Source: a virus. Taken from it: a stretch of DNA of 28,894 nt. The notes beneath the pieces were generated by a model, which worked only from the letters and a program-made list of their open reading frames with translations, was not told the origin of the DNA and did no database searches. Positions 5,495-28,845 of this stretch are shown piece by piece (position 1 is the first letter of the stretch; every line of letters starts with the position of its first letter). The DNA is taken from positions 1 to 28,894 of IMG/VR virus record IMGVR_UViG_3300033052_000007; one strand, written 5' to 3'. The translations under genes were made by a program, and so were the position numbers.

Positions 5495-5714
5495 CGCCAT
5501 CGCCGCGTGGAACCGCCGCACCGACACCGCTGCGCTAAGGGCGCAAGTGGTGGAGGAGTGGCCAGGCGACAATTACGAACAGTACGAGACGGCGCACAAT
5601 GCCGCAATTGCTGCATACGAAGCCACGTCGCCAACGGACTATCGGTACTCAGCCAGTGCTTTGCGCCACGCTGTGGACGCCGCCATCCGCTCTCTCAATG
5701 GGGAGCAGGGATGA
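5358..5714 (+). CDS. Lar-like zinc protein (restriction alleviation family)
   Basis: This is a 118-residue protein. Residues 12-54 match the Lar-type restriction alleviation domain: CPFCGG with C12/C15, a second knuckle around C31-x2-C34 (CDACDF), then GTRADAIAAWNRR, the family's closing motif. Lar from the Rac prophage modulates EcoKI restriction; most family members are untested, so the anti-restriction role here is inferred. The C-terminal half (55-118), with two AHNAAIAAYE/LRHAVDAAIR helices, is not part of Lar. Start is set by GGAG at 5348. Confidence 0.75.
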   Translation: MTDTVPQELLNCPFCGGAARYQRNPYHEVCCDACDFVGPARGTRADAIAAWNRRTDTAALRAQVVEEWPGDNYEQYETAHNAAIAAYEATSPTDYRYSASALRHAVDAAIRSLNGEQG

Positions 5715-5926
5715 TGGGGGAACCATGGAAGCCCCGCGCTGGCAAGTGGCCTTGGCGTGAGTTCCTGACGCTGGAGGAACGCGACAAGCTGTCGGAGGCG
5801 TGGGACGCGAAGCAGCACTGGCTCGCCCTGAACAAAGAACGCGCGGCCATCACAAACCGCGCGATACAGCGGGCCAAATACGCAGCCCGCGCCGCTCTCT
5901 CAAAAGCAGAAGGAGGGAAGCCGTGA
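5711..5926 (+). CDS. small basic phage protein
   Basis: This 71-residue protein starts at ATG 5711, overlapping the previous stop (ATGA); ATG 5714 is the next codon. It is tryptophan-rich at the front (GEPWKPRAGKWPWREF) and then helical and strongly basic (LNKERAAITNRAIQRAKYAARAALSKAE). This could bind nucleic acid, but no family is recognised. Confidence 0.6.
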   Translation: MMGEPWKPRAGKWPWREFLTLEERDKLSEAWDAKQHWLALNKERAAITNRAIQRAKYAARAALSKAEGGKP

Positions 5927-25180: not shown

Positions 25181-26569
25181 CTAGATCAACGCAGCCATTG
25201 CGAGCGCGGAATCGAAGGTGTGCTGGCCCTGCATGCCGAGGATCAGCGCCACCTTCTTGGTGAATTGGTAGGCGTTGGCGGTAGTCGAGTATCCCGTGCC
25301 GCCGAGCGCCAGTTGCGTCAGCGACGGGTAGGTCACGGTCTTGTCAGACCCCGGATCGGACGATCCGATAGCCTGGCAGGCCGCAAAATCCGGACCGGCC
25401 GCGAAGGCAAAAACCTGCGTTCCCGTGGCGGCCGTCTTGACCGTGATGCTGGCATGCGCAGTTCCGCCCGCAGTCACGGCGAAAACCCAATTCCCGCCGC
25501 TCTGGTAAATCTGCACGCTATTGGTGCTGGTCCCGTCGCTGAGATGCAGCAGGGCTTCGGAGGAACCGAGGCGCTTGACGTTGACCTCCAGCACCCCGCC
25601 CACGCCATAGGCCAGTTGATTGCCCAGCCCGCTGAGCACCTGCTTGTTGCCCGTGACAGAGGCTGTTGCCGAGGTTGTCAGGATAGGTGGAGAGGCATAC
25701 CCACCAAGCTCAACCTGCGCCCCCCACAGCAGCAGGGTTGTCCCGGTTCCGGCATAGGTCGGGAAACGGGTCGCGGTCCCCGAATTGACAAAGATGACGA
25801 AGAACTGCCCCGACGTTCCCGTGACCGTGACCGTAGCGGTGCACCTGTACCAGTCATCGTCCAGCGCTTCGATTGTCGCGGTAAACCCGCTCGATGCACT
25901 GACCACGCCGCTCTGCAGGTCGAAATTCGCATACCCGCTGCCGCTGATCGCCCCGGTCATCGCCAGTTGCATGTAGCGGTGCGTCTCCATCTTGGCACAG
26001 ACCGACAGAGTGTAGGTCGAGCCGTTGACGAAGGTGATCGCGTTGGTGCTGAAGTAGTGCAGCCCGCTCGATGTGTTGTCAGAACCACGGTCCGCCGTGG
26101 TCGTTCCGTCCGGCGCCGTATCGGCGTCCGCAACAGGGGAACCCAGGTTCGTCCGGCTCCAATAGGCGTTGTCGAATGCCTGCGACCTCAGGCACAGGTT
26201 GGTGCGGGTCGGAACGGTCTGCAGTCCGAGATCGGAACGGCACAGCACATTAGCCGCCGTCGAGGTCAGCAGACCATTACTATCCTGCACGTAGATCGCT
26301 TCCGGATGGGTGTCCGTCAGCGTGCCGAGCGAGCCGGTGTTGCTGGTGTAGTCAAACCAGTAGTTCGCCCCCCATGTCCATGATGGGTCCATCGGCTCCG
26401 GCCGCATGTCAGGCCGCACGCCCTGCGTATCCTTGACCGCGCGTGTGTATTCCTGCGGGTGGCGGTGGTCGAAACAGTGCCGGCACACCATGAGGCCAGT
26501 CCACTCCTTGCGGAGGTCGTTCAGCCAGTAGACGAAGCCGCAACGGTCACACACTCCCCTGCTTGGCAT
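25181..26569 (-). CDS. zinc-ribbon fused to beta-sandwich adhesin-like domain
   Basis: This is a 462-residue protein. Residues 1-40 are a zinc ribbon with C7-x2-C10 and C29-x2-C32 (VCDRCGFVYWLNDLRKEWTG, MVCRHCFDHRHP), which in related phages I recall as a separate protein of about 65-80 residues. Residues 110-300 look like a carbohydrate-binding beta sandwich (NLCLRSQAFDNAYWSR, YTLSVCAKMETHRYMQLAMT). The C-terminal part is LamG/concanavalin-like (VGGVLEVNVKRLGSSEALLH). Probable virion adhesin. Cysteines are few outside the ribbon. Confidence 0.65.
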   Translation of the reverse strand: MPSRGVCDRCGFVYWLNDLRKEWTGLMVCRHCFDHRHPQEYTRAVKDTQGVRPDMRPEPMDPSWTWGANYWFDYTSNTGSLGTLTDTHPEAIYVQDSNGLLTSTAANVLCRSDLGLQTVPTRTNLCLRSQAFDNAYWSRTNLGSPVADADTAPDGTTTADRGSDNTSSGLHYFSTNAITFVNGSTYTLSVCAKMETHRYMQLAMTGAISGSGYANFDLQSGVVSASSGFTATIEALDDDWYRCTATVTVTGTSGQFFVIFVNSGTATRFPTYAGTGTTLLLWGAQVELGGYASPPILTTSATASVTGNKQVLSGLGNQLAYGVGGVLEVNVKRLGSSEALLHLSDGTSTNSVQIYQSGGNWVFAVTAGGTAHASITVKTAATGTQVFAFAAGPDFAACQAIGSSDPGSDKTVTYPSLTQLALGGTGYSTTANAYQFTKKVALILGMQGQHTFDSALAMAALI

Positions 26570-26584: not shown

Positions 26585-26986
26585 CTAGTGTCTCCATCCC
26601 ATCGCATGCGCTTCTTCGTGCATGCGGATGATGCGGAGGGCCTTTCCGGTCAGGCCTTCGCAGACCCAGATAATGCCGGACTTCGGCGCGTAGTAACCGA
26701 GGACCTGCGAGCCGCTTGCCCGGTAGCTTGCCGGGATCATGGCGTTGAGGAATTCGGCGGACATGGTTCGGTATGGCATGTTCGGTTCATGCCGGTATGT
26801 CGGCGGCGGAAGCTGCGCTGCCGTCACCATGGCGTTGCGGCACTCGCCGGCCGACGCAATGAGCGTAATGCACCAGATGATCAGGACCCAGAGAACGCCG
26901 GAGATCATGAACAGCCCGAGAAGCGTCCACCCTCGGGGAAACCGGCGCAAAAAGTCGAGGAATCGCGTATAGCGGCTGTCAGCCAT
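26585..26986 (-). CDS. membrane protein ending in HExxHxxGxxH metallopeptidase motif
   Basis: This 133-residue protein starts at the ATG at 26986 (GGAG 8 nt upstream). A basic N-terminus (RYTRFLDFLRRFPRGW) is followed by one TM helix at about 22-45 (LLGLFMISGVLWVLIIWCIT). The outer part contains two cysteines (C49, C109) and VLGYYAPKSGIIWVCEG. The last eleven residues read HEEAHAMGWRH: H123, E124, H127, G130 and H133, an exact match to the HExxHxxGxxH zinc motif. It ends at that third His, so no Met-turn region follows. A membrane-anchored periplasmic peptidase is plausible. Confidence 0.62.
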   Translation of the reverse strand: MADSRYTRFLDFLRRFPRGWTLLGLFMISGVLWVLIIWCITLIASAGECRNAMVTAAQLPPPTYRHEPNMPYRTMSAEFLNAMIPASYRASGSQVLGYYAPKSGIIWVCEGLTGKALRIIRMHEEAHAMGWRH

Positions 26987-27033
26987 GGTCGATGCTCCAA
27001 TCATCGGCTGTGGTCAGGGCCGGGAGGAGCGTT

Positions 27034-27531: not shown

Positions 27532-28845
27532 TCAGAGGTACGCCGACCGACGCAGTTGGAAGTCGCCCGCCCTGACCGTGCCAACGCCCGAGAAGCGGAG
27601 CCACAAGTACACGTGAGCGGTGTTCGCCGGGATGGTGACTTCGGGGGTGGTGAGGACGCCGGAGGCCATCCGGAAACGTCCATTGGTCGCCAACATTGGA
27701 AAGACGCGCGCCGTCGCCAGCGTGGTGAAGCCGCTGTTGGCGCAACTGATCTCAAGGCTGATATTGTTCCGCGACAGACCATCGGCAGCACACCAGTTGG
27801 CGGCATCGGTCTCGAACAGACAGCGCGCTTTGAGGACATCGCCAACCGCGTATCCGCTCGCGACAGCCTCATTGAACAGGTAGAGCGTATTGTTGTTGCC
27901 AGAGCTACCGGCGCCAGCCGCAATCTGCTGCCAGGTGCCGAACTTCTTGCCGCCGGTCATTGCCACCTTGGACAGGGCGATTGACCCGCCCCCCGCCGCT
28001 ACGGCAGGGCCGTTTGTGGCCCAGTTGTTAGCCAGCGAGCCAGTCGCAGGGGCGCCCACGGTGCCGCTGGTGCCGCTCATCTTGCCGTTGGCTATGAGGT
28101 TCCCGGCGACGTTGTAGCCGTTGGTGGCGTCATAGGCGAGGTCGAGGTTGGTCGTGCCACCCTGAGGAAGACCCCACGCCGGGGCTGGCAAGAATGCATT
28201 AATGGCGTCGGCCACCAGGGCGCCAAACGAAGCACCGCCGGACGCGGTGAAATGGGTGTTGTCGCCAGTATCGATCATGTCGTCGATCGCACCGAACGCA
28301 GCCGACACCAGCGGGACGCCGGTATCCGGGTTCGTGGTGACTGCCGCAGCGTCCACGATGATCACGGGGTAGCCGCGCGTCTGGTAGCGCTGAGCATAGT
28401 ACTTGAGCTGCGCGTTGACGTTGAACAGCTTGATCATCTGCGCCGCGCTGAGCCCACCGCGCGCCGGCAGCGTCATGGCGAGGACGATGCAGCCCGCCCG
28501 CAGCAGCGCATCCCACACGGAAAGACGGCTGGCGACGATGGCATCGGCTGTCGTCGCGGTGCCCAGGTCGTTCGTTCCGCCATCCTCAAGCACGATGTCA
28601 GGCGTGGCAAGGAGGGTCGTGGCGACGCGCGCGGCGATCTGGGCGGCCGTCTCACCCCCGACGCCACCGTTGTAGACGAGGTTCAGGCGACCGCCCGACA
28701 TTGCATCGGCCCAGCCGAACCAGCCGTTCTGGCTGATGTCCTGGTGAATCCCGTTGGTGTAGGGCAGCCCATTGTTGACGAGGCTATCGCCGTGGGTGGC
28801 AAAGCGAAGGCTGAGGCGATTGAGGGCAGAGAATAGTTCGACCAT
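27532..28845 (-). CDS. SGNH/GDSL hydrolase with C-terminal binding domain
   Basis: This is a 437-residue protein. Residues 10-220 are an SGNH esterase: block I GDSL with nucleophile S21, block II NGGVGGET (59-66), block III GTND (90-93), block V D195-NT-H198. All four blocks are intact. The C-terminal half (235-437) is a beta sandwich (YLFNEAVASGYAVGDVLKAR, HVYLWLRFSGVGTVRAGDFQ) like a carbohydrate-binding module. A virion deacetylase that strips acyl groups from surface polysaccharide during adsorption is the likely role. Secretion signals are absent, as expected for a virion protein. Confidence 0.85.
   Translation of the reverse strand: MVELFSALNRLSLRFATHGDSLVNNGLPYTNGIHQDISQNGWFGWADAMSGGRLNLVYNGGVGGETAAQIAARVATTLLATPDIVLEDGGTNDLGTATTADAIVASRLSVWDALLRAGCIVLAMTLPARGGLSAAQMIKLFNVNAQLKYYAQRYQTRGYPVIIVDAAAVTTNPDTGVPLVSAAFGAIDDMIDTGDNTHFTASGGASFGALVADAINAFLPAPAWGLPQGGTTNLDLAYDATNGYNVAGNLIANGKMSGTSGTVGAPATGSLANNWATNGPAVAAGGGSIALSKVAMTGGKKFGTWQQIAAGAGSSGNNNTLYLFNEAVASGYAVGDVLKARCLFETDAANWCAADGLSRNNISLEISCANSGFTTLATARVFPMLATNGRFRMASGVLTTPEVTIPANTAHVYLWLRFSGVGTVRAGDFQLRRSAYL

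Follow-up and report, generated by a model that had tools for sequence, protein, structure and literature searches.

A family of short phage-borne proteins that end at a HExxHxxGxxH motif: putative minimal and circularly permutable zincins of the tail/lysis region

The window analyzed here is the whole of a 28.9-kb virus record (28,894 nt), and within a run of minus-strand late genes it carries an open reading frame of 133 amino acids (26585..26986, minus strand), whose ATG lies at 26986 and whose stop codon ends at 26585. We conclude that this is a real gene because a GGAG ribosome-binding site (26995..26998, minus strand) is found 8 nt before the ATG and because its GC content by codon position (0.55/0.50/0.78) is like that of the neighboring phage genes; a homolog with 42% identity adds to the gene call. 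An alternative start at 27004 would lengthen the protein by 6 amino acids. The plus-strand reading of the same interval was discarded, as it holds no protein of interest. As the initial annotation had described, the last eleven residues are HEEAHAMGWRH (residues 123–133; 26588..26620, minus strand), which we read as a putative zinc-site motif from the conservation of its H, E, H, and G, and the stop codon follows directly. In shuffles the HExxHxxGxxH pattern is expected 0.01 times, but the window contains one copy; this result, together with a homolog in another viral contig, rules out a chance motif.

An AlphaFold2 model predicts one N-terminal transmembrane helix (residues 18–45; 26852..26935, minus strand), in agreement with the single membrane segment noted initially, and the positive-inside rule would place the C-terminal domain outside given the positive N-terminus. 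Beyond the helix lie a PPxxY element (P60 P61 P62 T63 Y64; 26795..26809, minus strand), which is near-invariant in the family described below, and two cysteines that probably pair, namely Cys49 (26840..26842, minus strand) and Cys109 (26660..26662, minus strand), the latter at the end of the strand preceding the predicted active-site helix. The late operon named in the initial annotation was confirmed, with a GDSL lipase on one side of the gene and a tail protein on the other. The tail protein (phrog_5939 type, with carbohydrate-binding relatives; 25181..26569, minus strand) starts 15 bp downstream, and the GDSL lipase/acylhydrolase (phrog_6102; 27532..28845, minus strand) is two genes upstream. 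At the start of the tail protein (26569-26450, minus strand) there is a zinc-ribbon-like CxxC...CxxC stretch (MPSRGVCDRCGF...VCRHCFDHRHPQ). A GDSL-like gene also precedes the tail-fiber gene of Rhodobacter phage RcapMu; gene 57, which lies between the two, has no HExxH and was rejected as a zincin.

Viral contigs scanned for HExAHxxGWxH yielded 87 stretches; judged from their open reading frames, most of these come from a single family of short proteins built as PPxx[YF]x[HY]...C...[GA]C...CxI...HExAHxNGWxH. In about 70 distinct members the motif is C-terminal or nearly so, and among 70 members 0–39 residues, mostly 0–3, follow it. Measured from PP to the final histidine, the core has a median length of 77 amino acids, although some of the lowest values are artifacts of a second PP match. 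The closest relative of the window protein, L002, is encoded on another viral contig (42–46% identity) and keeps RMHEEAHAMGWRH, followed by SAERK and a stop, but carries a signal peptide in place of the membrane helix of the window protein. Against the family profile, the window protein scores E = 2.6e-6 when the motif is included and about 0.2 when it is left out. Thus, the window protein and L002 are best described as divergent members of the family, an assignment helped by the tail-gene neighbor that they share.

A known family was ruled out by sequence for Pfam, PHROGs, NCBIfam, and PDB sequences. There was no match in PHROGs at E<=0.01 with 29 members or at E<=0.001 with 53, none in NCBIfam at E<=0.01 with 53, and none of the scanned members matched a PDB sequence; in Pfam, 29 members returned only five sub-threshold rows (E 0.025–0.079). 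With the queries tried, no relative was found in cultured phages (50,697 records) or plasmids, and a first scan of the genome collection with the exact window motif gave no match. This phage-borne family therefore appears to be previously unclassified.

Since the first scan had imposed the motif, we relaxed it piece by piece. When HE was left free, all family-like matches retained it, and the exceptions were unrelated reading frames of 10, 28, and 94 amino acids. When the third histidine was left free, the distinct matches listed had a histidine at W+2 or W+4, the sole exception (L111) being truncated at a contig end; GWxxxH stands in place of GxxH in a third of the family. Leaving the residue before NGW free recovered L127, which ends in HELAHANGWTEGQ and a stop and is without the third histidine; its motif lies at 5692-5718 (minus strand), and it nevertheless adjoins a tail protein. 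With the tryptophan free, 57 distinct matches had it and the matches lacking it were unrelated proteins. Independently, a profile search across 392 genomes returned 12 matches, all of which keep HExxHxxG and a later histidine, apart from slight changes (HExGH and a single Trp-to-Phe substitution). Across these comparisons the H, E, H, and G never vary, the third histidine almost never does, and the intervening positions are unconstrained. The initial annotation had proposed a minimal zincin-type protein, and the search for homologs that lack the glutamate or histidines, or that continue without the motif, left this reading standing: among homologs the H, E, H, and G are invariant, and the third H has one exception.

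The L127 sequence is also what might be expected if the family merely used the fold as a noncatalytic zinc site, for example in a disulfide-stabilized adaptor or a superinfection-exclusion protein. The extreme small size of the proteins is in keeping with such a role, as is a substrate cleft of which just half of that in known zincins is present. However, the glutamate of HExxH was never replaced in the relaxed scans or the profile matches, and zinc binding alone does not require a glutamate of the catalytic type. We consider a noncatalytic role improbable.

The cysteines of the family are coupled. In alignment A3, Cys1 and Cys2 occur together in 51 rows and are jointly missing from two (the window protein and L002), and Cys3 and Cys4 occur together in 38 rows and are jointly missing from 15, with no discordant rows (p=1.6e-13, a statistic that ignores the relatedness of the rows). 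Because each pair is kept or lost jointly, the two pairs point to disulfide partners, and disulfides in turn to the periplasm. The window protein and L002 have Cys49 and Cys109 instead of the two usual pairs. A hydrophobic N-terminal segment is present in 48 of 66 members and a lipobox-like sequence in 11, while about a quarter lack a clear signal sequence. Taken with the coupled cysteines, these segments make it most likely that the family domain lies outside the cytoplasm, and the periplasmic orientation assumed at the outset was upheld.

The AlphaFold model of the window protein has a mean pLDDT of 89.8, with the qualification that the alignment supplied to it already assumed family membership, and places HExxH (residues 123–127) inside a helix spanning residues 114–128. 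In Foldseek searches, the best PDB rows are zincins, that is, IrrE, the archaemetzincin-type 3lmc, adamalysins, and selecase/jannalysin, all with E>0.3, and VIA aligns residues 58–133 of the model with Z scores of 3–4. Rows from BFVD include phage peptidases and IrrE-like proteins with E values of 0.025 or worse. Zincins rank first among the PDB rows, but no single match is significant. Taken together, the results suggest that the window protein is a stripped-down zincin core.

In nine distinct loci (L011, L018, L029, L031, L044, L046, L054, L066, and L069), the two halves of the protein are swapped, such that a signal peptide, CxI, and HExAHxxGWxH come first and PPxx[YF]x[HY], C, and GC(Q) come last. 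A half-profile running from PP to GC, which contains no HExxH, was searched among 9,246 open reading frames and recovers the rear part of L069 and of L044 at E of about 2e-4 and that of L029 at 0.007; L011 and L066 are weaker (0.08–0.09), and L018, L031, L046, and L054 are not individually significant in this set. In profile–profile comparisons, the PP halves match at 4.3e-6 and the motif halves at 3.2e-12, against 0.5 and 0.3 for the wrong pairings. The order of elements in the window model is strand-helix-strand-strand-(HExxH helix), and a separate AlphaFold run on L066 gave strand-(HExxH helix)-strand-helix-strand, a rotation of that order. The agreement between motif-free profiles and a separate model supports the view that these nine members arose by natural circular permutation. 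A structure search with the permuted model returned no zincin, as expected from aligners that depend on the order of elements. In the permuted chain, the third histidine leads straight into PPxx[YF]; hence the N-terminus of members of the usual order would be expected to lie near the motif in the folded protein, and the PPxx[YF] segment of permuted members would be positioned where metzincins have the Met-turn.

We favor, with a confidence only somewhat above even, the hypothesis that the window protein is a minimal zincin and putative peptidase that is anchored in the membrane, faces the periplasm, and belongs to the late tail/lysis region. Residues 1–45 would form the anchor and residues ~58–133 a three-strand, two-helix zincin core. 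From the conservation and the predicted fold, we infer that H123, H127, and H133 bind zinc and that E124 acts as the base that activates water. Neither the C-terminal subdomain nor the Met-turn of metzincins is present, and the N-terminal PPxxY turn may close the site from below. The protein would be expressed together with the late tail genes and would most likely clip a protein of the envelope or tail during assembly or lysis, as suggested by the position of the gene among late genes and by the periplasmic topology. We advance more tentatively, and would not yet place at even likelihood, the wider proposal that no smaller zincin peptidases are known, that in these an N-terminal PPxx[YF] turn stands in for the Met-turn and lets the chain stop at the third histidine, that the permutants, whose turn comes immediately after the motif, show the two arrangements to be interchangeable, and that the enzyme is coupled to a carbohydrate-binding tail protein.

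At the sensitivity used, the window and the phage that carries L002 (G001, 42.7 kb) have only three matches, namely the zincin, the tail protein (35–38% over ~400 amino acids), and one short fiber-like stretch. When the window tail protein was searched in the fetched viral loci, every match lay on the zincin strand and beside or near the zincin, either overlapping it or within ~300 bp in seven lineages (L127 being judged from the position of its motif) and at 1.1 kb in L002. The neighborhood is thus found in eight phage lineages and in both gene orders. Relatives of the tail protein have weak carbohydrate-binding or LamG matches. From this association it can be argued that the peptidase acts in virion or tail maturation, where it would process, or ride with, the adjoining tail protein, given that all homologs of that protein in the fetched viral loci lie near a zincin and that two otherwise dissimilar phages have the pair in common. 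We regard this as possible but unlikely: a detectable homolog of the window tail protein is missing from most zincin loci, and a membrane anchor or signal peptide would be odd for a virion-processing enzyme of the cytoplasm. The cultured phages inspected encode the tail protein without a zincin, some of them with lysis genes beside it. The pair is therefore accessory and its location is the tail/lysis junction; the adjacency of the two genes may reflect only this junction, which is a common place for accessory genes.

Lysis genes themselves are found near some members. L002 has a CHAP/lysozyme-like gene within ~260 bp, and endolysins occur within three genes of the zincin in L104 and L059, so that a lysis accessory has to be considered, in which a late peptidase of the envelope would help lysis by weakening either the cell wall or a lipoprotein of the envelope, with the Mtz/Tim pair of Listeria as a precedent (PMC8235301). 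Yet such endolysins are seen in only a few of the loci examined, at a rate estimated to be about that of chance for 50-gene phages, and the window endolysin is 12 kb from the zincin gene. In the window, no TIMP-like lipoprotein gene adjoins the zincin gene, whose neighbors are the tail protein and, two genes upstream, the GDSL lipase. We doubt that a lysis accessory is the correct explanation, about as much as we doubt a role in tail maturation. An enrichment of lysis genes near zincins was likewise rejected, as endolysin families are near few loci and show no clear excess. The initial annotation had suggested exclusion or lysis; the strongest contextual evidence instead favors an association with a carbohydrate-binding tail protein where tail and lysis genes meet.

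Matches in the genome collection are mostly from Hyphomicrobiales, and, judged from their translated neighbors, several are chromosomal and do not belong to prophages. Three chromosomal members (L188, L191, and L192) lie in exopolysaccharide biosynthesis loci of Hyphomicrobiales, and another (L194) is beside leuS. The neighborhood around two further members (L189 7316-7696 and L190 7463-7888) is conserved on the chromosomes of two bacterial genomes, and the family is therefore not exclusively a phage gene. In L186, a serine-resolvase reading frame is joined in frame to the front of the member, which has HEVGHCNGFPSDH, with Trp changed to Phe.

If active, these proteins would be about one-third smaller than selecase, a small zincin recovered in the structure searches, and would reveal what a zinc peptidase is capable of when it lacks a C-terminal subdomain or Met-turn. 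The family thus offers a rare natural test of the minimal protein that a zinc peptidase needs, and its natural circular permutants are ready-made material for testing which element stands in for the Met-turn. A name for the family would label an unknown gene that recurs in environmental phages, and the family also opens a way to study an accessory gene of the tail/lysis region in Hyphomicrobiales phages. As new we would count the unclassified family itself and, within a known kind of enzyme, a variant that lacks the Met-turn, ends C-terminally at the motif, and is circularly permutable.

Several known systems invite comparison. Like the metzincins (clan MA(M): astacin, serralysin, adamalysin, and MMP), the family is predicted to carry HExxHxxGxxH on a helix that follows a small sheet. 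The label metzincin-type in the initial annotation fits the motif of the window protein, but membership in the metzincins does not hold: no Met-turn is found C-terminal to the motif, the chain ending at the third histidine as had been pointed out, and, unlike metzincins, the family has no C-terminal subdomain, a core of ~77 amino acids, GWxxxH in a third of its members, and rotated forms. The minimal soluble zincin scaffold of selecase and the minigluzincins (Methanocaldococcus, chains of ~104–112 residues) resembles the one proposed here, and VIA aligns the window model with selecase at a Z score of 3.5 (2.4 A over 53 residues). Their third ligand is a glutamate on a later helix, whereas the proteins described here are smaller and probably secreted and disulfide-rich, and the putative third ligand is a histidine within the motif. 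IrrE/ImmA (M78) ranks first in Foldseek (E 0.39; Z 3.3 over 59 residues), and the core topology compares with that of M78 proteins and minigluzincins at Z scores of 3.0–3.5. IrrE is cytoplasmic and has its third ligand on a further helix; in contrast to both groups, the window protein has no residues after H133 and so no third-ligand helix. Mtz is a phage-derived metzincin of Listeria with a Met-turn (AIMLD) and a TIMP-like lipoprotein partner, Tim, which it likely cleaves, sensitizing cells to lysis (PMC8235301). By analogy, Mtz would be the closest functional precedent for the window protein: both are phage-associated, accessory, and secreted HExxHxxGxxH proteins, and Mtz lies near lysis genes in prophages.
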